The notes under the pieces were generated by a model that saw only the letters and a program-made list of their open reading frames with translations, had not been told where the DNA came from and did not search any database. A DNA stretch of 60,901 nt from a bacterium (lineage in GTDB: Bacteria; Pseudomonadota; Alphaproteobacteria; Rhizobiales; Aestuariivirgaceae): NCBI GenBank assembly GCA_022842165.1, contig JALHQC010000022.1, positions 1 to 60,901 of the forward strand, read 5' to 3'. The position numbers and the translations under genes are program-made. The stretch's first letter is position 1, and each line of letters begins with the position of its first letter. Of the stretch, positions 8,744 through 35,194 are shown piece after piece.

Positions 8744-9526
8744 TCAAAATACCACCTTGGCGATTTCGTAGGCGGACAGGATAACGACCAGGGCGCCGAC
8801 CGCGATCATGAGCGGTTTTCGCGGGGCGATCTTCAGCAGCCAGCCGGCCATTACCGCGGCCGGCAATCCGCCGGCGACGAGGCCCGCGATCGCCAGCAGG
8901 TGATCGGACACGCCGCTTGCTTCTTCCCATACGCCGAAAATCATGGTGGCCGCGAAGGCCGAGACGACCGCGCAGGTGACCACGAACTCCGCCGCGTTGA
9001 CGGTGCCGACGACGAAGCGCGGCGCGGCGCCCGCGCCGATGAGGCTTGAGGTGACGACCGGGCCCCAGCCGCCGCCGCCGATGGCATCAAGGAAGCCGCC
9101 GAGGGACCCAAGTGGCGCAATGAACTGCCCGGCTACGGTCTTGTTGGCTGGGAACATCAGGCCGCGCCAGATGATGACGAGGCCCATGATGCCGAGATAG
9201 CCGAAGACATAGGGTCTGATCGCACCACTCGCGATGTTAACGAGTACCAGCGCACCGATGATGCCGCCTAGCGACCCCGTCGCACAGAGAATGATCAGTA
9301 TGCGTTTATCGACATTGCCATGAACGATGTGGGAGATTCCCGAGGCGGCGGTGGTGAAGAGCTTTGCCGCGTGGACGCTGGCTGAAGTGTGGGCCGGCGG
9401 AACGCCGGACGCCAGCAGCACGACGGACGAAATGACGCCATAACCCATGCCGAGGGCGCCATCGATCAGCTGGGCCATGAAGCCGACTGCCGCGAAGATC
9501 AGGAAGTCCATCAACCACGGTTCCAA
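8744..9526 (-). CDS. TauE/SafE family sulfite/sulfonate exporter-like membrane protein
   Basis: This 260-residue protein has about eight hydrophobic segments and belongs to the TauE/SafE (DUF81) family, whose members export sulfite, sulfoacetate or related anions. FMAQLIDGALGMGYGVISS and IGGGGWGPVVTSSLIGAG are the paired family motifs. The start is decided by the ribosome binding site: GAGGAGGAA sits six bases before a TTG at 9526, while the first in-frame ATG at 9511 has no site near it. It lies 88 bases downstream of cysH on the same strand, so it probably acts as a relief valve for excess sulfite or another sulfur anion. Confidence 0.85.
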   Translation of the reverse strand: MEPWLMDFLIFAAVGFMAQLIDGALGMGYGVISSVVLLASGVPPAHTSASVHAAKLFTTAASGISHIVHGNVDKRILIILCATGSLGGIIGALVLVNIASGAIRPYVFGYLGIMGLVIIWRGLMFPANKTVAGQFIAPLGSLGGFLDAIGGGGWGPVVTSSLIGAGAAPRFVVGTVNAAEFVVTCAVVSAFAATMIFGVWEEASGVSDHLLAIAGLVAGGLPAAVMAGWLLKIAPRKPLMIAVGALVVILSAYEIAKVVF

Positions 9527-9614: not shown

Positions 9615-10325
9615 TCAGTTGTGAACGGTGGACAGGGCAGGAATCTCCCTGCCATTGTGCGTCCAGTGAATGCCGCACTCGGTCTTGTTGGTGCCGGCCC
9701 AGCGGCCCGCGCGTGGATCGGTCGAATTACCGCCCGGCGTGGTGCAGGGTTCGCAGCCGATAGAAAAATAACCAATCTCTGTCAGTGGATGTTGCGGAAG
9801 GTCATGCGACTTCATGTAAGCGCCGAGATCGAGCGCCGAAAATCCTGCCAATGGCTCGACCTTCAGGCGGCCTTCGGCAATTGACAGGAAATCAAGCGTT
9901 GCCCTGGCTGCGCCATGATAGCGCTTGCGGCCGGAGATGATGACGTCGAAGCCCTGAAGCGCATTCTGCAAGGGAATGGTCTTGCGGACGTTGCAGCACA
10001 GATCGGTGTTCGACTTGTGCAGCATGCCATCGGGATCTGTCGCGGCGAGATCAGCCGCATCCGGCGAAATCGAGCGGACACCGGTGAGGCCGAGCCTGTC
10101 GATCAGCTTTGAGCGGTAGCTCAGCGTTTCCCAGAAATGCTTGCCGGTATCGAGGAAGATGACTGGCGTTGCGGGATCGACTTCCGCCACCATGTGGAGC
10201 AGCACCGAGGATTCCGCGCCGAAGGACGAGACCACGGCGGCGCGGCCGCGAAAATCGCGCAGGATCGGCTCCAGCAGCTGGCGGCCCTCGAGGCCTGCGT
10301 AATTCTCGAAGATGCGCTTGTCCAT
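9615..10325 (-). CDS. cysH: Assimilatory adenylyl-sulfate (APS) reductase
   Basis: This 236-residue enzyme reduces activated sulfate to sulfite using thioredoxin or glutaredoxin. It has the iron-sulfur signature that separates APS reductases from enterobacterial PAPS reductases: paired Cys110-Cys111 in TDLCCNVRKTIPL and Cys191/Cys194 in IGCEPCTTPG. The catalytic Cys217 lies in the C-terminal TECGIH. The substrate loop is VVSSFGAESSVLLHM, and FLDTGKHFWET is the usual second motif. Preference for APS over PAPS is inferred from the 4Fe-4S cysteines. The gene follows the DUF934 gene by six bases within the sulfate-reduction operon. Confidence 0.94.
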   Translation of the reverse strand: MDKRIFENYAGLEGRQLLEPILRDFRGRAAVVSSFGAESSVLLHMVAEVDPATPVIFLDTGKHFWETLSYRSKLIDRLGLTGVRSISPDAADLAATDPDGMLHKSNTDLCCNVRKTIPLQNALQGFDVIISGRKRYHGAARATLDFLSIAEGRLKVEPLAGFSALDLGAYMKSHDLPQHPLTEIGYFSIGCEPCTTPGGNSTDPRAGRWAGTNKTECGIHWTHNGREIPALSTVHN

Positions 10326-10331
10326 AGCCGC

Positions 10332-10862
10332 TCAGCCGGCGTGGGGCTGTTCGAGCCAGGGCTCGGCATCGGTGTGGCGTTCGGTCCAGATTTCAGCTTC
10401 CGAGCCACGGCGGAACAGGCCGCGCTGATAGGCGAGCGACATCTGCTTTGAGGCCTGCTGCCAAGTAGAGAGCGGAAAACGCTCGCCAATGTCGAAAGTG
10501 TCAAAGCCCACCTGCAGCATCAGCTGAAGCTGGTCGGGCAACACATTGCCGGTGGCGCGCAATTCGCCGCGATAGCCCATTTCGCGCAGCTGGCGGGCAA
10601 TCGAATAGGCGCGGCCATCGTTGAAGGCGGGGAAGGGAAGGATGACCGCCGAGAGTCTTGGCAGGAACATCGAGAGGGCTTCGGCGCGGTCCACGTTGCC
10701 GAGCTCCACGCCCAGTTTGCCATCGCGCTGCGAGAGGCTTTCCCATTCCTTGAGCAGCCGCACGAATGGCACGATCACGTCGCCCGCATTTGGAAGCTCG
10801 CCATCCACACCTGCATGAATCCATGTGTCGGAAATCAGCGTGTTGTTCTTAAGCAGTGGCAT
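10332..10862 (-). CDS. DUF934 protein of the sulfite-reductase operon
   Basis: This 176-residue protein belongs to DUF934, a family found almost only between sulfite reductase and APS reductase genes and assumed to help sulfate reduction; its biochemical role is unknown. Family features visible are GDVIVPFVRLLKEW near the N-terminus and FPAFNDGRAYSIARQLRE in the middle. The start at 10862 (MPLLKNNTLISDTWI) has an ideal AAGGAGG upstream and overlaps the end of cysI by 14 bases, which suggests coupled translation. A longer start further upstream would lie deep inside cysI and is unlikely. Confidence 0.88.
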   Translation of the reverse strand: MPLLKNNTLISDTWIHAGVDGELPNAGDVIVPFVRLLKEWESLSQRDGKLGVELGNVDRAEALSMFLPRLSAVILPFPAFNDGRAYSIARQLREMGYRGELRATGNVLPDQLQLMLQVGFDTFDIGERFPLSTWQQASKQMSLAYQRGLFRRGSEAEIWTERHTDAEPWLEQPHAG

Positions 10863-12504
10863 AGAGCGCCTCCTTGAAAGGTTTGGGGCCGACACGGCGA
10901 TAGGCGGCAAGGAATTCCTCGTCCGGCTCGCGCAGCTTCAGATAGGTGTCGAGGATCGTCTCGATGGCGTCGGCCACTTCATGACCCGCAAAGCCCGGCC
11001 CGAGGATGGTGCCGATCGAGGCGTTCTCGGCGGAGGAACCGCCAAGCGTGATCTGGTAATATTCCTCGCCCTTCTTGTCGAGGCCGAGGATGCCGATGTG
11101 GCCGACGTGATGGTGGCCGCAGGCATTGATGCAGCCCGAGATGTTGATCTTCAGCTTGCCGATCTCGTCCTGCCTGGCGCTGTTGGCGAATTTCCGCGAA
11201 ATCGACTGCGAGATGGGGATCGAGCGCGCGGTGGCGAGCGCGCAATAATCGAGGCCGGGGCAGGCGATGATGTCGCCCGCGAGGCCATAATTTGCTGCCG
11301 CCAGATCAGCGCCCTGAAGGGCCTGCCAGATTGCGAAGAGATCGTCTTTCTTCACATGCGGCAGCACGATGTTCTGGGCGTGGCTGACGCGCAGTTCATC
11401 GAAACTGTAGCGCTCGGCAAGATCGGCCATCACGCGCATCTGGTCGGATGTCGCGTCACCCGGAATGCCGCCATCGGGTTTGAGCGAAATGTTGACGATC
11501 GCATAGCCATCGGCATGGTGGGGGCCAAGGTTGTTCTTGGCCCAGCGCGCGAAATCAGGGCTCTTGAGCTTCGCTTCCTCGAAGGCTGCGGACCAGCGCG
11601 GCAGTTTCTCCAACTGAGGTGCTGCGAAATATGCTGCGATGCGTTTCAGCTCACGCTCTTCGACTTCGGTCGAGGCATGCGGGCGCCTGGCATATTCGGC
11701 CTCGACTTCGGACTTGAATTTCTCGGCACCCAGCTCGTGGACGAGGATCTTGATGCGGGCCTTGTACTTGTTGTCGCGGCGGCCATAGAGATTATAGACG
11801 CGCATGATGGCTTCGAGATAGCCGATCAGCTCATGCTCGGGCAGGAAATCGCGCACGGTGACGCCCACCATCGGGGTGCGGCCAAGTCCGCCGCCGACGA
11901 TCACTTCCCAGCCCACGGCGCCTTCCGCATTCTTGTGCAGACGAAGCCCGATGTCGTGCACCTTGACGGCGGCGCGGTCGTTGGGAGCACCCGTCACCGC
12001 GATCTTGAACTTGCGCGGCAGGTAGGAGAATTCGGGGTGGAGCGAGGACCACTGCCGCAGCAATTCGCCCACCGGGCGGGGGTCGGCGATCTCGTCAGCG
12101 GCGGCACCGGCCCAATGGTCGGTCGTCACGTTGCGGATGCAATTGCCGGATGTCTGGATCGCATGCATCTCGACTTCGGCCAGCGCATCGAGAATGTCGG
12201 CAGTGTCTTCCAGCTTGATCCAGTTGTACTGGATGTTCTGGCGCGTGGTGAAATGGCCGTAGCCCTTGTCCCACTTGTCAGCAATGAAGGCGAGCTGGCG
12301 CATCTGGCGGCTGGACAGCGTGCCATAGGGAATGGCGACGCGCAGCATATAGGCGTGAAGCTGCAGGTAGAGGCCGTTCATCAGGCGCAAGGGCCGGAAT
12401 TCTTCCTCCGTCAGCTCGCCCTTCAGGCGGCGGTCCGCCTGGTTGCGGAACTGGTTGGTGCGGTCGCGCACGAACTGGTGGTCGAACTCGTCATAACGAT
12501 ACAT
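10849..12504 (-). CDS. cysI: Sulfite reductase, siroheme/4Fe-4S hemoprotein (ferredoxin-dependent type)
   Basis: This 551-residue siroheme protein performs the six-electron reduction of sulfite to sulfide. The duplicated ferredoxin-like and nitrite/sulfite reductase domains are visible. The cluster and siroheme cysteines are Cys415 and Cys421 in ACPGLDYCALA, and Cys458 and Cys462 in SGCINACGHHHVGH. The substrate-side motif FTTRQNIQYNWI is typical. No flavoprotein subunit (cysJ) lies nearby, whereas a 2Fe-2S ferredoxin heads the operon, so electrons probably come from ferredoxin. Nitrite reductase is the alternative within the superfamily, but the cysH/DUF934 context makes sulfite reductase far more likely. 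Confidence 0.93.
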   Translation of the reverse strand: MYRYDEFDHQFVRDRTNQFRNQADRRLKGELTEEEFRPLRLMNGLYLQLHAYMLRVAIPYGTLSSRQMRQLAFIADKWDKGYGHFTTRQNIQYNWIKLEDTADILDALAEVEMHAIQTSGNCIRNVTTDHWAGAAADEIADPRPVGELLRQWSSLHPEFSYLPRKFKIAVTGAPNDRAAVKVHDIGLRLHKNAEGAVGWEVIVGGGLGRTPMVGVTVRDFLPEHELIGYLEAIMRVYNLYGRRDNKYKARIKILVHELGAEKFKSEVEAEYARRPHASTEVEERELKRIAAYFAAPQLEKLPRWSAAFEEAKLKSPDFARWAKNNLGPHHADGYAIVNISLKPDGGIPGDATSDQMRVMADLAERYSFDELRVSHAQNIVLPHVKKDDLFAIWQALQGADLAAANYGLAGDIIACPGLDYCALATARSIPISQSISRKFANSARQDEIGKLKINISGCINACGHHHVGHIGILGLDKKGEEYYQITLGGSSAENASIGTILGPGFAGHEVADAIETILDTYLKLREPDEEFLAAYRRVGPKPFKEALYATA

Positions 12505-12507
12505 GGA

Positions 12508-12849
12508 TCATACTCCTTCGGGCGCGGCAAAGCCTGCGCCCTTTCCCTCAGCCTGCTTGCCGAGGTCAAGTCTTACTGTCGGCCCCAGCGCGCGCATGCG
12601 CTCGCGGATATGCGCGGCGCGGACGCGGCCCTCGCGGCGCTCGGCATCGATCAGATAGGCGCCGGTGACGAGCGTTGCCTTCTCATCGTCCTTGGCGCGC
12701 AATTCGAGAGCGGCGGCGGCCTGGGGTTCAAGCGCCAGCGCGGCATCGTCGATTACTTCGCTCCACTGACCGGAGCGGGTGAGGAAAACGGCGATCCCGT
12801 CCCGCAGCCGGTTGGCAGTAACGAGCTGGCCTTTTTCGGTGGCGGTCAT
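12508..12849 (-). CDS. DUF2849 protein of the sulfite-reductase operon
   Basis: This 113-residue soluble protein belongs to DUF2849, a small alphaproteobacterial family that is regularly encoded just before cysI. The first half has LVTANRLRDGIAVFLTRSGQWSEV split around a short beta-rich region, then an Ala-rich helix (ALALEPQAAAALELRA) and the segment VTGAYLIDA. It contains no Cys and no membrane segment. Its start overlaps the siroheme synthase stop (ATGA), and its stop lies three bases from the cysI start, so it is tightly embedded. Its function is unknown; the constant location suggests help in sulfite reductase assembly or siroheme delivery. Confidence 0.85.
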   Translation of the reverse strand: MTATEKGQLVTANRLRDGIAVFLTRSGQWSEVIDDAALALEPQAAAALELRAKDDEKATLVTGAYLIDAERREGRVRAAHIRERMRALGPTVRLDLGKQAEGKGAGFAAPEGV

Positions 12850-13874
12850 GATGCGGCCCTCAGCAATGCTTCACGGAAATCTTCGCGGATGGGGAAGGGG
12901 GTGGCTTCGGCCGGTTTCGGAGCGGCGACGGCAGGAACCGTTTCGAAGGCCAGGCCTTCTGCCGCGACCGATACCGTTTCCTCGACCGAAGGCTCGGCCA
13001 TGGACAGCCGCACCACCAGCTTGCCGGCCTTGGCTTCGGCGATGAGCACATCCGTCGCGCCATCGAAGAGTTCACCCTTCACGGGCACACGAACGGCATC
13101 GCGGCGCGCCATTTCGAGAAGGGCAGGCGGAACAGCGCGGTCATGCACGATCACATCTGCCTCATGCAGCTTGCGCTGCGCCTTGATAGTCAGGAGTTCG
13201 GGATCATCCGAGGCAATGCCGACGAAGGAGACGCGGCCCACAGGAGGTGCTGCCTCATCCGCGAAAAGGCCTTCGACGCCTGCGAGGTAGTTGCAGGATT
13301 CCTTTGCGATGAAGGCATCGCGCACATTGCCAAAAAAGAAGCGATACCAGAAGCCACGGCGGCGGTTGCCCGCGGGAACCGTTGCGGCGACACGTTCACG
13401 AAGGTCTGCCCCGGCCTTGGCGAGATCGCCCAGGGCCATTGGCAGCATCGCATCGATGCGGGCGCGGAGGCCCTGGCCGAGGATGGGTGCGGTGCCTTCA
13501 GTGCCGATCGCGACGACGACCGGATCGCGGTCGACGATCGACGGTACGATGAAGGTCGAGATTTCCGGGTTGTCGACGGCGTTGACAGGGATGCCAAGCG
13601 TCTGTGCATCGGCGGCGACCTTCTCATTCAGCGCGGGATCAGCCGAATAGACCAGTGCCGCACCTTCGATGAGGGAGGCGTTGTAGTGGCGTGCGATCCA
13701 GTTGACGCGCGGCTCGGCGGCCAGTTCATCGTGGAGCGCTGGCGCGATGACGGCGATCTTCGCTTCCGTTTTGAGCAGCAGGCGGATCTTGCGGACGGCT
13801 TCCTCGCCGCCGCCGACGACAATGACGGGGCGATTGCGGAGATCGAAGAAAATCGGGAAATAGCGCATGTCCAA
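12846..13874 (-). CDS. Siroheme synthase with intact dehydrogenase/chelatase part and degenerate methyltransferase part
   Basis: The 342-residue product resembles CysG but is much shorter than the usual 460-480 residues. Residues 1 to about 200 match the precorrin-2 dehydrogenase/sirohydrochlorin ferrochelatase module. The NAD-binding loop is VIVVGGGEEAVRKIRLLL, and VNAVDNPEISTFIVPSIVDR holds the catalytic Asp region. From about residue 215 the sequence resembles the start of a uroporphyrinogen-III methyltransferase (DDPELLTIKAQRKLHEADV, VIVHDRAVPPALLEMARRDA). However, the glycine-rich SAM loop reads GIASDD instead of GAGPGD, and the RLKGGDP segment is replaced by RLSMAEP. The C-terminal subdomain is absent. 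Methylation of uroporphyrinogen III must then come from a separate enzyme. Confidence 0.88.
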   Translation of the reverse strand: MDMRYFPIFFDLRNRPVIVVGGGEEAVRKIRLLLKTEAKIAVIAPALHDELAAEPRVNWIARHYNASLIEGAALVYSADPALNEKVAADAQTLGIPVNAVDNPEISTFIVPSIVDRDPVVVAIGTEGTAPILGQGLRARIDAMLPMALGDLAKAGADLRERVAATVPAGNRRRGFWYRFFFGNVRDAFIAKESCNYLAGVEGLFADEAAPPVGRVSFVGIASDDPELLTIKAQRKLHEADVIVHDRAVPPALLEMARRDAVRVPVKGELFDGATDVLIAEAKAGKLVVRLSMAEPSVEETVSVAAEGLAFETVPAVAAPKPAEATPFPIREDFREALLRAAS

Positions 13875-13877
13875 TCC

Positions 13878-14189
13878 TCAGCCGTTTGCCACGAGCTTGA
13901 CCTCGAGGCCTTCGAGTTCAGGTGTGAAAATGATCTGGCACGACAGGCGCGAGCCGCCGGAGAGGATCGGCACGCTGTCGAGCATGGCTTCCTCGTCGTC
14001 ATTGGCGGGGTGAAGTTTCGATACCCACTCATCCGCCACTTCAACGTGGCATGTCGCGCAGGCGCAGGCACCGCCACAGATGCCGATCTCGAATCCATGG
14101 TCGCGGATGATCTCCATCACGCGCCAGCCTTCGACCGCATCGAGGATGTGGCTGACACCGTTCTGGTCGGTTATCCTGATCGTGCTCAT
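13878..14189 (-). CDS. 2Fe-2S ferredoxin (adrenodoxin type)
   Basis: This 103-residue electron carrier has cluster ligands Cys38, Cys44, Cys47 and Cys84. They sit in ICGGACACATCHVEV and RLSCQ, the C-x5-C-x2-C...C spacing of adrenodoxin/Isc-type ferredoxins; Cys42 is extra. It is the first gene of the leftward sulfate-reduction operon, three bases before the siroheme synthase, so it is the likely electron donor to CysI. The ATG at 14189 gives the normal N-terminus MSTIRITDQNG. An upstream TTG at 14210 would add seven residues not seen in the family. Confidence 0.92.
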   Translation of the reverse strand: MSTIRITDQNGVSHILDAVEGWRVMEIIRDHGFEIGICGGACACATCHVEVADEWVSKLHPANDDEEAMLDSVPILSGGSRLSCQIIFTPELEGLEVKLVANG

Positions 14190-14250
14190 CGCTACCGTTC
14201 GCTTCTTCAAACGTTCGATGTTCCGTACGAGCGCTTCACCATGGCCACGA

Positions 14251-14274
14251 TTTCGTTTGATCTTTAAAACGAAA
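14251..14274. promoter_or_regulatory. Palindrome TTTCGTTT-N8-AAACGAAA in the cys divergent promoter region
   Basis: A perfect 8-base inverted repeat with an AT-rich centre lies 62 to 85 bases upstream of the ferredoxin start, where the leftward operon promoter is expected. It shares the TTCG/CGAA core with the neighbouring GTGTTCG palindrome but has a different spacing. It may be an operator or part of the promoter. Confidence 0.45.
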
Positions 14275-14297
14275 AAGCGGTATCAGAAGGGCATACA

Positions 14298-14335
14298 GAA
14301 CACCGGCCATCGGTGGTGTTCGTTTTATCGAACAC
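14298..14335. promoter_or_regulatory. Operator-like cluster: GAACACC, then GTGTTCG-N6-CGAACAC
   Basis: A 20-base palindrome with perfect 7-base arms (GTGTTCG at 14316-14322 and CGAACAC at 14329-14335) surrounds the AT-only centre TTTTAT. A third half-site in inverted orientation, GAACACC, lies at 14298-14304. The cluster ends 24 bases before the regulator's ATG, so it is placed for autorepression and for control of the divergent ferredoxin-cys operon. Very similar palindromes occur at 33564-33583 and, degenerated, at 27537-27552. Confidence 0.65.
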
Positions 14336-14359
14336 TAGTTCTAAGTACAGGACGGCGAA

Positions 14360-14986
14360 ATGTCAACGCGTCGCGGCAAGAAACCATCCGATTCACAAGA
14401 CTTTGATCCGACGCCATCGCTGGGCAAGACCATCCAGAGGTTGCGGAAAGCCTACAACATGTCGCTAGGCGACCTGTCGGAGCAGTCGGGCGTTGCGAAG
14501 TCGATCATCTCGCAGATCGAACGGAACGAGACGAACCCAACCCTTTCAACGGTTTACCGGTTATCGCGGGCGCTGGACACAACAATTGACGAAGTTCTGC
14601 GCACCGATGACCAGAAGGTATTCCTTGAACACCAGCTGAAGTCGGGGGTTCCGATCCTCGAAAGCCAGGATGGGCTGTGCCGGCTGGCCATCGCCGGGCC
14701 GCTCAATCTCGTCGAGCAGGTGCAGTGGTATGATTTCCGGGCGCGGCCCAAGGGTGTGCTCGAGTCCGATCCGCATCCGCCGGGAACCGTCGAGCATCTG
14801 TATATCTTGGCGGGCGAGGTAGAGGTGACGACTGGCGAGATGACCAAGCGGGCAAAGACCGGCGAGACCCTGCGCTTCCGGGGCGACCTGCCGCACCGGA
14901 TCGAGAATGTGGGCGAGGGCGATGCCCACGCCACCATGGTGCTGGTGCTGCGGCAGCTCGGCGGAGCCGAGGCCGTCACGCAGTAG
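14360..14986 (+). CDS. XRE-family regulator with C-terminal cupin domain, probable regulator of sulfur assimilation
   Basis: This 208-residue DNA-binding protein has an N-terminal HTH at about residues 18-75 (LGKTIQRLRKAYNMSLGDLS, then SGVAKSIISQIERNETNPTL). A C-terminal cupin follows at about residues 115-200 (HPPGTVEHLYILAGEVEVTT, then RFRGDLPHRIENVG), a fold that usually binds a small effector or metal. It is transcribed divergently from the ferredoxin-cys operon across a 170-base gap containing palindromes, and it is followed by a ChaC-like enzyme. Control of sulfate reduction in response to a sulfur metabolite is inferred from this arrangement; no cysB is visible here. Confidence 0.87.
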   Translation: MSTRRGKKPSDSQDFDPTPSLGKTIQRLRKAYNMSLGDLSEQSGVAKSIISQIERNETNPTLSTVYRLSRALDTTIDEVLRTDDQKVFLEHQLKSGVPILESQDGLCRLAIAGPLNLVEQVQWYDFRARPKGVLESDPHPPGTVEHLYILAGEVEVTTGEMTKRAKTGETLRFRGDLPHRIENVGEGDAHATMVLVLRQLGGAEAVTQ

Positions 14987-14998
14987 GGTCGCTCGTTC

Positions 14999-15748
14999 AT
15001 GCGGGGGAAGATCGCACTCACGTCCAGCCTCGTGGCTCATGTCGACCGTACGATCCCGCAGGAGCATTTGGGGCCCGATCCCAGCCGCGTGCCGATGACG
15101 GAGGAGGACTACGCGGCCGCCGCTGCGGATATCCTGGCAGCGTCAGGAAAAGGTCCATTGTGGGTTTTCGGCTACGGGTCGCTGCTGTGGAATCCTGGTT
15201 TTGCTTTTGTAGAGCGGCGGGCTGCGTGCCTGCGTGGCTGGCACCGGGCCTTCTGCATGCAATTGCTGCGGTTCCGGGGCTCGCCCGAGCAGCCGGGCCT
15301 GATGCTGGCGCTGGACCACGGCGGAAGCTGCAAGGGCGAAGTGTTCAGAATCGATGAGGCCAGTGCGCCTGCGGAAGTGGACAAGCTGCTGCGGCGCGAA
15401 ATTCCCTATCGCCGCCTGGCGCGGGCCTGGCGCTGGGTCGACGTTGATACCGGCGACAGGCGCCAGAAGGCGCTGACCTTCTATGCCGGAATGCGGCGCG
15501 ACCGGTTTTACGTGCGGCTGCCGCTGGACGTTCAGGCCCACATGCTGGCGCGCGCCGCAGGGCATGGCGGATCGGGCGCGGCCTACCTGCACCAGACCGT
15601 CATGAAGCTCGAGGAACTCGGCATTCATGATCGTTATCTGTGGCAGTTGCAGCATCTCGTTGCGGCCGAAATCCGCACGATGTTTCCCGATCTGCCGGAT
15701 GATGGGGCGGCGTCGCCTCAGGCGAGCGACACCGCGCCGTTGGGGTAG
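14999..15748 (+). CDS. ChaC-like gamma-glutamylcyclotransferase
   Basis: This 249-residue protein probably cleaves glutathione to 5-oxoproline and Cys-Gly, recycling cysteine. The signature loop is LWVFGYGSLLWNPGFAF, where YGSL binds the gamma-glutamyl group. RAACLRGWHRAFCMQLL and KGEVFRIDEA are typical of the ChaC family. A catalytic acidic residue is expected in the central region. The start at 14999 lies 12 bases after the regulator's stop, so the two are probably co-transcribed, which fits a sulfur-recycling role. The ATG at 15095 is an alternative start that would remove an atypical 32-residue leader; no strong ribosome binding site decides between them. It converges with dprA with a 31-base overlap. 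Confidence 0.87.
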   Translation: MRGKIALTSSLVAHVDRTIPQEHLGPDPSRVPMTEEDYAAAAADILAASGKGPLWVFGYGSLLWNPGFAFVERRAACLRGWHRAFCMQLLRFRGSPEQPGLMLALDHGGSCKGEVFRIDEASAPAEVDKLLRREIPYRRLARAWRWVDVDTGDRRQKALTFYAGMRRDRFYVRLPLDVQAHMLARAAGHGGSGAAYLHQTVMKLEELGIHDRYLWQLQHLVAAEIRTMFPDLPDDGAASPQASDTAPLG

Positions 15749-26837: not shown

Positions 26838-27494
26838 TTACTTCGGCTGCGGCACCATGCGCAGATAGGGCTTGAGCGTCTTCCAGCCGCCGGGGAACTT
26901 CTCCTTCGCCGCATCGTCCGAGACAGAGGCGAGAATGATGACGTCCTCACCCTGCTTCCAGTCCGAGGGTGTGGCGACGGACTTCGTCGCGGTAAGCTGC
27001 AGCGAGTCGACCACGCGGACGATCTCATTGAAATTGCGCCCCGTGCTCATCGGATAGGCGGCAATGAACTTGATCTTCTTGTCCGGCCCGATGATGAAGA
27101 CGTTGCGCACCGTGGCATTGTCCGCTGCCGTACGGTTGGGGTTGGCGGACGCGTTCGGGTGGATCATGCCATAGAGCTTGGCGACATCCAGGCTTTCGTC
27201 TCCAATCATCGGATAGTTCACGGAAGCGCCGGTCACGTCCTTGATGTCGTTCTTCCAGCGCTGGTGAGCCTCTACCGGATCGATCGAGATGCCGATCAGC
27301 TTGACGCCGCGCTTGTCGAACTCGTGCTTCATCTTCGCGACAGAGCCAAGCTCGGTCGTGCAGACGGGGGTGAAATCCTTCGGGTGAGAGAAGAACACGA
27401 CCCAGGAGCCTTCGATGTAATCGTGGAACCTGATGCGGCCTTCGGTGGTCTCAGCCTCGAAGTCCGGTGCGATATCGCCGATCTGCAGTGCCAT
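26838..27494 (-). CDS. 1-Cys peroxiredoxin (Prx6 type)
   Basis: This 218-residue thiol peroxidase reduces hydrogen peroxide and organic peroxides. The peroxidatic Cys45 lies in SHPKDFTPVCTTELGS. The long C-terminal domain (about residues 165-218) and the segment LIGISIDPVEAHQRWKNDIK identify the Prx6 class. GRNFNEIVRVVDSLQLT holds the conserved Arg region. The ATG at 27494 has GGAGG five bases upstream, which settles the start. A degenerate copy of the GTTCG-N6-CGAAC palindrome lies 43 bases upstream, suggesting shared control with sulfur genes. It lies divergent from a small membrane protein gene. Confidence 0.93.
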   Translation of the reverse strand: MALQIGDIAPDFEAETTEGRIRFHDYIEGSWVVFFSHPKDFTPVCTTELGSVAKMKHEFDKRGVKLIGISIDPVEAHQRWKNDIKDVTGASVNYPMIGDESLDVAKLYGMIHPNASANPNRTAADNATVRNVFIIGPDKKIKFIAAYPMSTGRNFNEIVRVVDSLQLTATKSVATPSDWKQGEDVIILASVSDDAAKEKFPGGWKTLKPYLRMVPQPK

Positions 27495-27536
27495 GGTAGC
27501 CTCCATCTTTGCGTGGTCCAATGTAGTTCAGAAATC

Positions 27537-27552
27537 GTTCGTTTAAAAGAAC
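27537..27552. promoter_or_regulatory. Degenerate operator-like palindrome GTTCG-TTTAAA-AGAAC
   Basis: This site matches the GTTCG-N6-CGAAC pattern with one mismatch in the right arm and an AT-only centre. It lies between the divergent peroxiredoxin and membrane-protein genes. Compare the perfect copies at 14318-14333 and 33566-33581. Confidence 0.45.
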
Positions 27553-28452: not shown

Positions 28453-30876
28453 ATGGCCGCTCCCGTCTTTACATCTTCAAATCTGGTCTCCCTGAACGAG
28501 GGCCTGACCACCGTTCAGCTGCTGACCGCGACCGATGCCGATGTCGGCGATACCGTCACTTTCACGCTGAAGTCCGGTTTCGACAGGTCGAAATTCAAGC
28601 TGAACGGCAACACGCTCGAGTTCATCAATGCCCCGGATTTCGAGAACCCGCTCGACGGCGGCACCAACAACTCCTACCTCGTGACGGTGATCGCCACCGA
28701 CAGCACGGGCGCGAAGACCGAGCAGACGGTGACGGTCCTCGTGACGGACGTGGTGGGCGTAACCCTCGACGGCGGCACCGGTGACGATCTGGTCGGCCCG
28801 GTTGGCGCCACGGTCGACGGCGACACGCTGAACGGCCTTGCCGGCAACGACACCCTCGATGGCGGCCTTGGCAGCGACACGATGAATGGCGGCGACGGCA
28901 ATGACGTATACATTGTCGAGAGCGTCGGCGACACCGTCAACGAAACCGGAACGGTTGCCTCGACCGCCGACGAAGTGCGCGCCGGCATCACCTATGTGCT
29001 CGGCGCCAACCTCGAGCGGCTGATCCTGACAGGTACGGACAAGATCGACGGCACGGGCAATGAGCTTGCCAACTTCATCCAGGGCAACAACGACAAGAAC
29101 ACGATCGACGGCGGCACAGGTGCCGATACGATGGCGGGCGGCGCTGGCAGCGACATCTACATCGTCGACAACACCGGCGACGTGGTGACTGAGAACAGCG
29201 GCGAAGGCTTTGACGACGAAGTCAGGTCCAGCGTCAACTACACACTGTCGGCGAACATCGAAATCCTGAAGCTCACGGGTACGGCTTTCGAAGGCCGCGG
29301 CAACACCGGCAACAATACCATCCACGGTAACGCCTCCGACAACGATTTGTATGGCGATGATGGCGATGACGAGCTTTTCGGCAACGGCGGGCACGATCAC
29401 TTCTACGGCGGAAAGGGCAACGACACCTTCTACACCGACGGCAATGCCCATTTCTACGAAAACGCCAACGAAGGCACCGACACCATCGTCACCACGGCGA
29501 ACATCAACCTCACGAACCTCATCAATGCTGGTGCCGCCGACGTCATCAACATCGAGAATGTTACCCTGACCGGTACAGCGATCTCCGCCATCGGACACAA
29601 TGGCAAGAATACGCTGGTGGGCAACGAGCTTGCCAACGTTCTGCAAGGCCGTGGCGGCGATGATCGTCTGGAAGGCGGCGCTGGCACCGACACGATGACC
29701 GGCGGCAGTGGCGACGACACCTATGTCGTCGACGACAGCACCGACGTCATTGTCGAACTCGCGGGTATCCTCGGCGAAGGCTACGATACCGTCATTGCGA
29801 ACGTCACCTACACGATGGCCGACAACGTCGAAAAGCTAAACATGGGCTTCTCGGCAGGCAACATCAGCGCCACCGGCAACGGCGGCAACAACGTCATCAA
29901 TGGTAATGTCGGCAACAATACGCTGACTGGACTTGACGGCAACGACAAGCTGAACGGCGGCCTCGGCATCGACACGATGATCGGCGGCAACGGCGACGAC
30001 CGCTATTACCTCAACGTGCTGGCGGACGTCGTTACCGAGGTATCCGGTGTGGGTACCGGCACCGACATCATGTTCGTCTCGGGCTCGGCCGGCACCAGCT
30101 GGACGATCGCGGAGAACGTCGAGAACATCAAGATCCAGGGTCTCGTCGCGCAGAACGCGACCGGCAACACCCTGGCCAACGAGATGGTCGGCAACGGTCA
30201 GGCCAACATGCTCACCGGTCTTGCCGGCAATGACACGATGGACGGCGGCCGCGGTGCCGACACCATGATCGGCGGCGCCGATAACGACACCTACTTCGTC
30301 GACAACATCGGCGACGTGGTGACGGAAGCGTCCTCGCAGGGCACGGACACCGTGAACTCCTACATCGACTTCACGCTGGCCGACAACTTCGAGAATCTTT
30401 CGCTGTTGAGCACCGGCAACATCGACGGCACCGGCAACAGCGTCGCCAATGTCATCAACGGCAACCGCGGCAACAACGTGCTGAATGGCGCTGGTGGCAA
30501 CGACACCATCAACGGCGGCGCCGGCAACGACACGATTAACGGCGGCTCGGGCGCCGACACGATGGACGGCGGCCTCGGCACCGACAAGTTCGTGTTCAGC
30601 TCGGCTTCCGACGCGAATGGCGACAGCATCGTGAACTTCACCTCCGGTGAAACGATCGATCTTTCGGCGATCGACTGGGATACCGTCACCGGCGGCGACC
30701 AGGCCTTCGTGATGGACGCCAACGGCACATTCGTCGCCGGCGAGATCGACATCGTGGTGGTGGGAACCACCGCGACCGTCAACCTCTACACCAACAATAT
30801 CGCCGGGGTGGATGCATCCTTCACCGTGGCGCTGCCGACCGGCGCCACCGAGCTGGACATGCTCTTCATTCTCTAA
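28453..30876 (+). CDS. Large RTX calcium-binding repeat protein with N-terminal cadherin-like domain
   Basis: This 807-residue acidic, Gly/Asn/Asp-rich protein is probably secreted. Residues 1-100 form a cadherin-like domain (LTATDADVGDTVTFTLKSGF, LEFINAPDFENPLDG). The rest consists of repeated modules of about 90-110 residues. Each joins RTX nonapeptides (GLAGNDTLDGGLGSDTMNGG) to a beta-helical segment such as VTYTMADNVEKLNM. At least five modules are visible, and the end DSIVNFTSGETIDLSAIDWD resembles the C-terminal part of type I secretion substrates. There is no Sec signal and almost no Cys. No catalytic domain is recognised, so an adhesin or S-layer-like role is possible. A strong terminator follows. 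Confidence 0.85.
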   Translation: MAAPVFTSSNLVSLNEGLTTVQLLTATDADVGDTVTFTLKSGFDRSKFKLNGNTLEFINAPDFENPLDGGTNNSYLVTVIATDSTGAKTEQTVTVLVTDVVGVTLDGGTGDDLVGPVGATVDGDTLNGLAGNDTLDGGLGSDTMNGGDGNDVYIVESVGDTVNETGTVASTADEVRAGITYVLGANLERLILTGTDKIDGTGNELANFIQGNNDKNTIDGGTGADTMAGGAGSDIYIVDNTGDVVTENSGEGFDDEVRSSVNYTLSANIEILKLTGTAFEGRGNTGNNTIHGNASDNDLYGDDGDDELFGNGGHDHFYGGKGNDTFYTDGNAHFYENANEGTDTIVTTANINLTNLINAGAADVINIENVTLTGTAISAIGHNGKNTLVGNELANVLQGRGGDDRLEGGAGTDTMTGGSGDDTYVVDDSTDVIVELAGILGEGYDTVIANVTYTMADNVEKLNMGFSAGNISATGNGGNNVINGNVGNNTLTGLDGNDKLNGGLGIDTMIGGNGDDRYYLNVLADVVTEVSGVGTGTDIMFVSGSAGTSWTIAENVENIKIQGLVAQNATGNTLANEMVGNGQANMLTGLAGNDTMDGGRGADTMIGGADNDTYFVDNIGDVVTEASSQGTDTVNSYIDFTLADNFENLSLLSTGNIDGTGNSVANVINGNRGNNVLNGAGGNDTINGGAGNDTINGGSGADTMDGGLGTDKFVFSSASDANGDSIVNFTSGETIDLSAIDWDTVTGGDQAFVMDANGTFVAGEIDIVVVGTTATVNLYTNNIAGVDASFTVALPTGATELDMLFIL

Positions 30877-33563: not shown

Positions 33564-33583
33564 GTGTTCGAAATAACGAACGG
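33564..33583. promoter_or_regulatory. Operator-like palindrome GTGTTCG-AAATAA-CGAACGG before rhodanese-metZ
   Basis: A perfect GTTCG-N6-CGAAC core with an AT-only centre ends nine bases before the rhodanese ATG. The left arm GTGTTCG is identical to the left arm of the palindrome upstream of the XRE-cupin regulator at 14316. The position next to the start codon suits a repressor that blocks transcription. Confidence 0.6.
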
Positions 33584-33591
33584 GTCGTTCC

Positions 33592-33993
33592 ATGCATCAG
33601 GGTGATATCTCTCCGGCCGAGGCCTATCAGCGGCTTCAGAACAATCCTTCCGCCGTGCTGATCGATGTGCGCACGCAGCCGGAATGGGTGTTCGTGGGGG
33701 TGCCGGCGGTCGAGCGGCTGATCCGGCTGTCGTGGCAGGTTTTCCCGTCGATGCAGGTCAATGGCCAGTTCGTGGCGGAAATCGAGCAGATGGGACTGCC
33801 GAAGGATTCGGAAATCCTGTGCATCTGCCGTTCGGGCGCGCGCTCGGCCTCGGCTGCCTCGGCGTTGACGCAGGCAGGCTTCAGCAATGCCTGGAACGTC
33901 GCGGAGGGCTTCGAGGGCGACAAGGATGCCACCGGCCACCGCGGCAAGCTGGGCGGCTGGAAGGCGGCCGGGCTGCCATGGGTTCAAAGCTGA
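33592..33993 (+). CDS. Rhodanese-like sulfurtransferase (single domain) linked to metZ
   Basis: This 133-residue rhodanese domain has catalytic Cys79 in LCICRSGARSASAASAL, with the active loop CRSGARS. It starts MHQGDISPAEAYQRLQNNPS. WVFVGVPAVERLIRLSWQVF is an insertion after the usual VRTQPEW and is typical of this subgroup. VAEGFEGDKDATGHRGKLGG and WKAAGLPW end the domain. The gene is seven bases before metZ in the same direction, and this pairing recurs in alphaproteobacteria. A role in supplying sulfane sulfur for homocysteine formation is inferred. Confidence 0.9.
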   Translation: MHQGDISPAEAYQRLQNNPSAVLIDVRTQPEWVFVGVPAVERLIRLSWQVFPSMQVNGQFVAEIEQMGLPKDSEILCICRSGARSASAASALTQAGFSNAWNVAEGFEGDKDATGHRGKLGGWKAAGLPWVQS

Positions 33994-34000
33994 GGCGGTG

Positions 34001-35194
34001 ATGAAGAAACACAAATCCGACCCCAAGGGCTGGGGCGATGCCACGAAGCTGGTGCGGGGCGGGCTGGACCGTTCGCCCCATGGCGAGACTTCGGAAGCGC
34101 TCTATCTCAATTCGGGCTTCGTTTATGACGAGCCGGAGACGGCCGAGAAGCGTTTCGCCGGCGAGGATGATGGCTACGTCTATGGCCGGTATGGCAACCC
34201 GACGGTCTCGATGTTCGAGGAACGGCTCGCACTGCTTGAGGGCGCCGAGGCCTGTTATGCGCTGGCATCCGGCATGGCGTCGGTTTTCGGTGCGCTGGCC
34301 TGCCAACTGAAGGCGGGGGATCATCTGGTGTCGTCCAAGGCGCTGTTCGGATCCTGCTATCAGGTGGTGACGTCGATCCTGCCGCGCTTCGGCATCAAGA
34401 CGACGCTGGTCGACGGGGCCGACCTCAACGCATGGCGGGACGCGATCACCAGAGACACCAAATGCGTGTTCCTCGAAACGCCTTCGAATCCGACGCTGGA
34501 TGTCATCGACCTCGAAGCCGTGTGCGGCATCGCCAATGCGGCGGGTGCCAACATTGTGGTCGATAACATTTTTGCGACCCCTATCCTGCAGCGGCCCTTG
34601 AACTATGGCGCCGATGTCATCGTCTATTCCGGCACCAAGCACATGGACGGGCAGGGGCGTGTGCTGGGTGGGGCAATCATGTCCACCCGCAAGTTCAAAG
34701 AGGAGCAGCTCAAGCCTTTCCTCCGCCATACTGGACCTTCGATCTCGCCATTCAATGCGTGGATTTTGCTGAAGGGCCTCGAGACGTTGAAGCTCCGGGT
34801 CGAGGCGCAGTCGCATGCGGCGCACAAGATCGCTGAGACGCTCTCGGGATTCGATGGCGTGACGCGGGTGCTCTATCCGCATCTCGACTCGCATCCGGCC
34901 GCCGCACTGTCGCGCAAGCAGATGAAGCTTGGCGGCACGATGGTGACCTTCGAAGTGGCGGGCGGCAAGAAGAAGGCTTTCGACGTGCTGCGGCACCTCG
35001 GTATCATCGATATTTCCAACAATCTCGGCGATGCGAAATCGCTGATGACGCATCCGGCTTCGACAACGCACCGGAACATCGGTGCTGAAGCGCGCGCGAT
35101 GATGGGGATCACCGATGGCATGCTGCGGCTGTCAGTCGGGCTTGAGGACGTGGAAGACCTGACCGCCGACCTGAAACAGGCGCTGGCGGCCTAG
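34001..35194 (+). CDS. metZ: O-succinylhomoserine sulfhydrylase
   Basis: This 397-residue PLP enzyme of the Cys/Met metabolism family makes homocysteine from O-succinylhomoserine and sulfide. The PLP lysine is Lys213 in VIYSGTKHMDGQGRVLGG, and YGRYGNPTVSMFEERLALLE and ETPSNPTLDVIDLEAV are signature segments. HMDGQGR after the lysine is typical for MetZ rather than cystathionine enzymes. It therefore uses the sulfide made by the cys operon. The start ATG at 34001 (MKKHKSDPKGWGDATKLVRG) fits the family. Its stop overlaps the convergent MFS gene by four bases. Confidence 0.92.
   Translation: MKKHKSDPKGWGDATKLVRGGLDRSPHGETSEALYLNSGFVYDEPETAEKRFAGEDDGYVYGRYGNPTVSMFEERLALLEGAEACYALASGMASVFGALACQLKAGDHLVSSKALFGSCYQVVTSILPRFGIKTTLVDGADLNAWRDAITRDTKCVFLETPSNPTLDVIDLEAVCGIANAAGANIVVDNIFATPILQRPLNYGADVIVYSGTKHMDGQGRVLGGAIMSTRKFKEEQLKPFLRHTGPSISPFNAWILLKGLETLKLRVEAQSHAAHKIAETLSGFDGVTRVLYPHLDSHPAAALSRKQMKLGGTMVTFEVAGGKKKAFDVLRHLGIIDISNNLGDAKSLMTHPASTTHRNIGAEARAMMGITDGMLRLSVGLEDVEDLTADLKQALAA

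Follow-up and report, generated by a model that had tools for sequence, protein, structure and literature searches.

The XRE-Cupin/cys Locus and Its Palindromic Sites

The window, by which we mean the whole 60.9-kb stretch of DNA analyzed, is contig C22 of a 4.3-Mb genome whose nearest named relatives are Aestuariivirga and other Hyphomicrobiales (G000; G and L numbers are labels for genomes and loci in this analysis). On its forward strand lies the gene for an XRE-cupin transcription factor (14360–14986; Pfam HTH_3 and Cupin_2), the predicted reader of the palindrome described below, with a ChaC-like gamma-glutamylcyclotransferase gene directly 3′ of it (14999–15748, forward strand; Pfam ChaC); a ChaC gene stands at that place in 5 of 36 scanned loci of relatives. 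The divergent cys operon, on the reverse strand, begins with a 2Fe-2S ferredoxin gene (13878–14210; Pfam Fer2) and continues with genes for a CysG-like siroheme synthase (12846–13874), a DUF2849 protein (12508–12849; domain search), a CysI-like sulfite/nitrite reductase (10849–12504; Pfam NIR_SIR, with the cut-off reached for none of the seven NCBIfam models listed), a DUF934 protein (10332–10910; domain search), and the phosphoadenylyl-sulfate reductase CysH (9615–10325; over the cut-off of NF002537). Just past cysH, on the same strand, is a gene of the TauE-type sulfite exporter family (8744–9526). The CysG-like protein is over the cut-off of NCBIfam cysG_Nterm and partly matches the C-terminal methyltransferase domain; at 342 residues it is short, with about half of that domain, and close relatives align with it over nearly its whole length. 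The cys-operon ferredoxin is present in some relatives and missing in close ones (L059–L112), a pattern suggestive of gain or loss uncoupled from that of the regulator.

Further along the window are a peroxiredoxin gene with a 1-Cys Prx C-terminal domain (26838–27521, reverse strand; over the cut-off of NF009668, and Pfam), and, on the forward strand, genes for a single-domain rhodanese (33592–33993; Pfam Rhodanese) and the O-succinylhomoserine sulfhydrylase MetZ (33887–35194; over the cut-off of TIGR01325), the MetZ ORF being given as listed, with its true start probably further in. An RTX calcium-binding repeat protein with a weak cadherin match is encoded at 28453–30876, between the peroxiredoxin gene and a dimethylglycine-dehydrogenase-like gene.

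The main candidate operator, O1 (GTGTTCG-TTTTAT-CGAACAC, 14316–14335), lies between the XRE-cupin gene and the cys operon, 24 bases upstream of the XRE-cupin ATG, and is the perfect palindrome with 7-base arms that an initial annotation of the window had described. A degenerate tandem copy, O2 (GTTC-N8-GGAC, 14338–14353), follows 20 bases, or two helical turns, past O1; O2-like sequence occurs in many rows of the intergenic alignment, and the right flank is conserved in the XRE-cupin loci scanned for the site. This two-turn arrangement at the regulator's own promoter suggests side-by-side dimers and autorepression. The candidate peroxiredoxin operator (27537–27552; GTTCTTTTAAACGAAC on the gene's strand) is 15 bases upstream of a TTG-start ORF (27521) that has in-frame ATGs 5 and 9 codons inside. 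The candidate rhodanese-metZ operator (GTTCGAAATAACGAAC, 33566–33581) is also present as previously noted (GTGTTCG-AAATAA-CGAAC), but the distance from the end of its core to the ATG at 33592 is 10 bases rather than nine. The centers of all three sites consist of A/T only, as had been observed.

A weight matrix was built from 28 XRE-upstream sites of relatives, with the window excluded. It ranked the peroxiredoxin, O1, and rhodanese-metZ sites first, second, and third in the window (scores of 29.7, 27.8, and 26.1), the highest score in 40 simulated windows being 16.8. That a matrix made from XRE-upstream sites places these three at the top implies that all belong to one motif centered on the XRE-cupin promoter. 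The original inspection had not been exhaustive, and the matrix adds two places, both in the cys/XRE intergenic region: a possible extra site or promoter element at 14257–14276 (18.0, versus 16.8 in the simulations) and 14211–14230 (10.7). The latter is the scored form of 14213–14228, which with 14197–14212 (1.4) makes up a weaker pair of one-mismatch matches at the head of the cys operon (14197–14228), spaced by 16 bases; similar sequence is found there in close relatives.

Definition of the Motif and Its Distribution in the Genome

The motif had initially been written as the ten-base form GTTCG-N6-CGAAC. Exact copies occur twice in the window (14318–14333 and 33566–33581), against a shuffle mean of 0.16, and 2 of 100 shuffles reach two. 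Across the genome there are 12 exact copies, of which eight fall inside long ORFs taken as genes; the remaining four comprise both window sites, a site before a 2Fe-2S ferredoxin/reductase operon, and a site before arsenite oxidase genes, the last two also falling in opposite-strand ORFs (452 and 116 aa) judged spurious. Copies with one mismatch are about as frequent as a reversed-pattern control (261 versus 239). The ten-base form was dropped as a definition on the strength of these loose counts and of the eight copies in gene-like ORFs.

The core of the motif is GTTC-N8-GAAC with an A/T-rich center. The base next to the GTTC/GAAC arms is variable, being G or T, mirrored; the peroxiredoxin copy, which has T in 22 of 23 peroxiredoxin loci, is therefore a normal variant and not the one-mismatch site for which it had been taken. 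Written as GTTC-NN-WWWW-NN-GAAC, the core matches three places in the window (the same two and 27537–27552; expected 0.03, and in none of 100 shuffles). Checked genome-wide, as the initial annotation had asked, the loose form is not enriched, whereas the A/T-centered form is enriched over the reversed control (7 versus 1 in the whole genome, and 13 versus 3). In 37 genomes the spacing of 6 was found at 41 places versus 13 in the control; a spacing of 5 showed no excess (6 versus 16). The seven A/T-centered places comprise the three window sites, the ferredoxin/reductase operon (site ~20 bases upstream of it), fdxA (12 bases upstream; named in G000 from near-identity to L237), arsenite oxidase, and one place inside an ORF (C8:8205). 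The ferredoxin-operon and fdxA sites score 21.5 and 23.0 with the matrix. In G000 the predicted targets have sites at five promoters, spread over three contigs; the sites stand ~10–45 bases before likely start codons, i.e. in or near core promoters.

Two candidates were set aside. The LexA SOS box of Alphaproteobacteria is a direct repeat, GTTC-N7-GTTC; the present motif is an inverted repeat, GTTC-N8-GAAC, located before sulfur and redox genes, and a LexA assignment was dropped. The arsenite-oxidase palindrome, with a GGATTTCC center, was first counted in the regulon and then separated from it, as it precedes arsenite oxidase genes behind a sigma-54-type response regulator; it still scores 21.0 with the matrix.

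Conservation at Unrelated Promoters

For four genes, the 30 best loci each were scanned, after correction for orientation, for a site near the start that departs from the ten-base form at no more than one position; one metZ locus (G040) comes from elsewhere in the order, and all the others from the window's genus. The site is before the XRE-cupin gene in 30 of the 30 loci returned, at −42 in most, and before the peroxiredoxin gene in 23 of 30. It precedes rhodanese-metZ in 18 of 30 metZ loci returned, two of these being without the rhodanese gene. The ferredoxin-reductase operon carries it in 15 of 30 and has it absent or degraded in the other 15, as is also the case in 19 of 20 of a second locus set (G014 is in both sets); 11 of those 19 loci are flagged as regulator-bearing, one of them (G045) only at 35% identity. 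Conservation before the orthologous genes holds with these exceptions at the ferredoxin operon and with a further one at rhodanese-metZ, where ten regulator-bearing members of the genus have no site (G036, G012, G021, G003, G022, G032, G007, G025, G004, and G008).

The four promoters are not homologous to one another. At all four the GTTC/GAAC arms are invariant and the flanks hold 0.3–1.2 bits; choosing rows under this one-mismatch limit favors the arms, yet no mismatch fell in GTTC/GAAC. In the order as a whole, 60 of 80 XRE-cupin orthologs have the site in their 390-base upstream tile, versus 64 of 2403 other tiles from the same loci; by the scan used, the remaining 20 orthologs had no upstream site.

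A reading of the sites as chance palindromes, as terminator hairpins, or as RNA elements draws on the loose motif being about as frequent as its reversed control, and on the ferredoxin-operon copy, which lies within a perfect GCCGTTCG-A6-CGAACGGC palindrome that could also form a hairpin. We regard it as very improbable, given the fixed place of the sites at unrelated promoters, the invariant arms with drifting flanks, and the co-occurrence with a single regulator gene described below.

Co-Occurrence of the Motif with the XRE-Cupin Gene

Among 199 genomes of the order that are at least 90% complete, the XRE-cupin protein has a match at E 1e-30 in 61, and in 53 of these at 51% identity or more (close orthologs). 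A strict form of the motif occurs in 30 of the 53 genomes with a close ortholog versus 7 of the 146 others (p = 7e-15), and the reversed-pattern control in 1 of 53 versus 17 of 146. The strict pattern was designed from XRE-upstream sites; as only the match of G150 rests solely on the regulator's own promoter, an exception found by comparing the ortholog and motif lists by eye, the motif lies outside that promoter in 29 of the 53. These genomes are related to one another, and the window's genus accounts for six of the 30 with both motif and ortholog, G000 included. Collapsed by family, with family labels entered by hand, the motif is present in 10 of 16 families with a close ortholog versus 5 of 32 others (p = 0.002). 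It is absent, in its strict form, from 23 of the 53 genomes and 6 of the 16 families with a close ortholog.

These counts also bear on whether another factor reads the palindrome, such as the Rrf2 or Lrp/AsnC regulators that are encoded divergently at some sites. At L230 the site lies between divergently transcribed genes for an Rrf2 protein and a sulfate-binding protein, and at L291 an Lrp-like gene is divergent from cysH. Genes of these two families turn up at a handful of the sites whose surroundings were read. The XRE-cupin gene, by contrast, tracks the motif across genomes and is itself preceded by the site, so that a different reader seems improbable.

Genes Downstream of the Sites in Other Genomes

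The genes following the sites were read in 32 regions of genomes with the XRE-cupin gene, picked for spread and not at random, three being from G018 of the genus. A gene fitting the regulon follows the site in 13 of 20 regions of a first set and 8 of 12 of a second, leaving 11 of the 32 without one. The fitting genes of the first set encode sulfonate-binding proteins (L288 and L290) and a NIL-domain ABC ATPase (L289), or are cysH (L291 and L301), rhodanese-metZ (L294), metX (L298), cysD (L300), metK (L303), GST genes (L297 and L299), fdxA (L285), and the XRE-cupin gene itself (L304); those of the second are metX (L337 and L338), cysH (L339, L340, and L343), an SsuA-like gene (L341), and cysD (L344 and L345). 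The regions that do not fit are L286, L287, L292, L293, L295, L296, and L302 in the first set, L292 having a homocysteine methyltransferase gene more than 500 bases from the site, and L342, L346, L347, and L348 in the second. Distances from site to ORF as called range from 3 to ~380 bases in the first set; in L298 and L299 the site is inside the listed ORF, whose true start is probably later. Family searches back the assignments at L288, L289, L290, L291, metZ of L294, L297, L298, L300, L301, L303, L337, L343, and L344, and those at L285, the rhodanese of L294, L299, L304, L338, L339, L340, L341, and L345 were made by reading the sequence.

Within the genus, sites were also found before a sulfate-binding protein gene (L230; read from the sequence in L233), a ferredoxin-NADP reductase-like gene (L234, where the model's cut-off is not reached; read from the sequence in L235), and fdxA (L237). 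In genomes lacking a close ortholog, the sequence was read at eight places; none precedes a recognizable sulfur gene, and two lie before an XRE/protease-like gene pair.

The XRE-Cupin Protein and Its Possible Signal

The XRE-cupin protein matches Pfam HTH_3 at residues 25–78 and Cupin_2 at 130–194, both over cut-off. In 22 aligned orthologs the HTH stretch SGVAKSIISQIERNETNPT (residues 43–61) is invariant, as are His139, Glu145, Arg172, Asp176, and His179 of the cupin domain; Cys107 is nearly so, being absent in L135. A structure model has a mean pLDDT of 73.5, with most of the cupin part above 90, and does not settle the ligand. The closest PDB match in both sequence and fold is the Vibrio cholerae XRE-cupin protein 1Y9Q (E 3.6e-14; Foldseek E 2.3e-15), albeit at 23% identity. 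The pocket of 1Y9Q is said to hold D-methionine (PMC7901475). The effector of the present protein is likely to be a small sulfur metabolite.

A different signal, oxidative or thiol stress, could act through the same site and the same XRE-cupin protein, in which case the regulon would defend thiols and Fe-S chemistry, and sulfur assimilation would be induced as oxidants use up cysteine. The peroxiredoxin, the ferredoxins and ferredoxin reductases, the ChaC gene beside the regulator, and the GST genes in other families would all suit such a role, as would the nearly invariant cysteine at residue 107 of the cupin domain. Many targets in other families are nevertheless assimilatory (cysH, cysD, metX, metZ, metK, and ssuA), a sulfate-binding protein gene is among those in the genus, and Cys107 is missing in L135; we consider a stress signal rather unlikely.

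A Predicted Sulfur-Assimilation Regulon

That the palindrome marks a regulon, as first suggested from the window, is supported by the conservation at four unrelated promoters, the transfer of the matrix, the co-occurrence with the XRE-cupin gene, and the sulfur genes found after the sites elsewhere. We predict, with a probability of roughly 0.8, that the palindrome is the operator of the XRE-cupin protein (14360–14986) and that this protein governs a sulfur-assimilation regulon with ferredoxins, reductases, and a peroxiredoxin. Judged from the genomic evidence, a repressor-type protein, uncharacterized so far and encoded beside the sulfite reductase genes of Aestuariivirga-like bacteria and related organisms, very probably binds the palindrome. 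An XRE-cupin dimer would bind inside core promoters at its own gene, the divergent cys operon, rhodanese-metZ, the peroxiredoxin gene, the 2Fe-2S ferredoxin/reductase operon, and fdxA. The cupin domain may sense a small sulfur metabolite, such that the regulon would open when reduced sulfur is short. Repression is the most likely mode of action, since the sites lie at core promoters, where Pseudomonas XRE-cupin proteins repress.

In Pseudomonas aeruginosa, XRE-cupin repressors (PsdR, PauR, ErfA, and others) are described as having sites in core promoters and acting by repression (PMC7901475). The protein studied here resembles them, as they are presented there, in combining HTH and cupin domains, in its palindromic sites and their core-promoter positions, and in having a site by its own gene (PMC7901475). 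In that section's account each of them, PauR excepted, acts on one or two local targets, in contrast to the five promoters predicted to be marked here (PMC7901475). The theme also differs, being sulfur and ferredoxin in the present case; the word sulfur is absent from the main text of that source (PMC7901475).

Sulfur assimilation in Enterobacteria, Bacilli, and Corynebacteria is under well-known master regulators. CysB, the main sulfur regulator of E. coli, CymR, and McbR/CysR control assimilation genes by sulfur status and belong to the LysR, Rrf2, and TetR families, respectively. The XRE-cupin protein would have a like role and differs in matching only Cro/C1-type HTH and cupin models, with no LysR-type features among its matches. 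The methionine regulons of Proteobacteria, which are governed by MetJ, MetR, SahR, SamR, or riboswitches, likewise include methionine and SAM synthesis among their targets but have other regulators and motifs (PMC4239095); XRE and cupin are absent from its main text. A further parallel is E. coli SutR (YdcN), so annotated in NC_000913.3, for which a role in sulfur utilization is indicated by its name and by a title cited in PMC8464067. In a pairwise comparison alone, SutR and the XRE-cupin protein can be aligned over the HTH and cupin regions (25% identity over 171 columns, E 8e-22).

Sulfur regulators and XRE-cupin regulators are both known kinds, and SutR is both. Full-text literature searches, with most subscription papers and RegPrecise outside their scope, returned no description of a regulon of this reach with this site, nor of a sulfur master regulator for these Hyphomicrobiales. 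The analysis provides one candidate protein, a site, and a target list for sulfur assimilation in these organisms.

Electron Supply to Sulfite Reductase

CysJ was searched for, with a strict family cut-off, in 37 genomes, 23 of them of the genus, and in 14 control genomes. The cut-off was reached in none of the 37, the window's included, and in 2 of the 14 control genomes; the window's genome has no CysJ match at E 1e-20. In G037 a full-length match falls slightly short of the cut-off, and G011, G018, and G019 of the genus have partial matches only. Since the regulon would hold ferredoxins and reductases and no CysJ was found by this search, it probably matches sulfite reduction to electron supply, and a ferredoxin/reductase system is a plausible electron source for sulfite reductase in this genome. 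The question of electron supply is now testable, with ferredoxin and ferredoxin-reductase genes bearing the same predicted operator and no CysJ over cut-off in the 23 genus genomes searched. A CysJ-like gene is seen by reading beside the cysH site in some other families (L301 and L339), and the ferredoxin/reductase route would thus not be general.

We more tentatively propose, at somewhat less than an even chance, that one XRE-cupin protein is the main sulfur regulator in a large part of the Hyphomicrobiales, that its regulon joins sulfate/sulfonate uptake to SAM synthesis together with ferredoxins and reductases, and that a ferredoxin/reductase pair is the physiological donor of assimilatory sulfite reductase where CysJ is missing. 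If this is true, such a regulon would connect sulfate/sulfonate uptake, activation, sulfite reduction, homocysteine synthesis, and SAM synthesis.

Palindromes Near Other Regulatory Genes

Several palindromes adjoin genes for regulators of other families. Those with a GGATTTCC-type center stand ~110–156 bases before arsenite oxidase genes in G000 (C32:17286–17301; L011 and L245), G005 (L231), and G019 (L236), the arsenite oxidase being assigned by family search for L245 and by reading the sequence for L231 and L236; a sigma-54-type response regulator gene adjoins them. The GTTC-N8-GAAC palindrome separates an Rrf2-family regulator gene from the divergent sulfate-binding protein gene at L230 (family search) and L233. 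At L291 (family search), L301, L339, and L340, cysH and an Lrp/AsnC-like gene are transcribed divergently and this palindrome lies between the two or next to them, so that a second regulator may share this promoter. Finally, in two genomes without a close XRE-cupin ortholog, GTTCTATATAGCGAAC was found by reading before a gene pair encoding an XRE-like and an ImmA-type-protease-like protein (L329 in G107 and L330 in G208), which suggests that other XRE families use near-identical palindromes.
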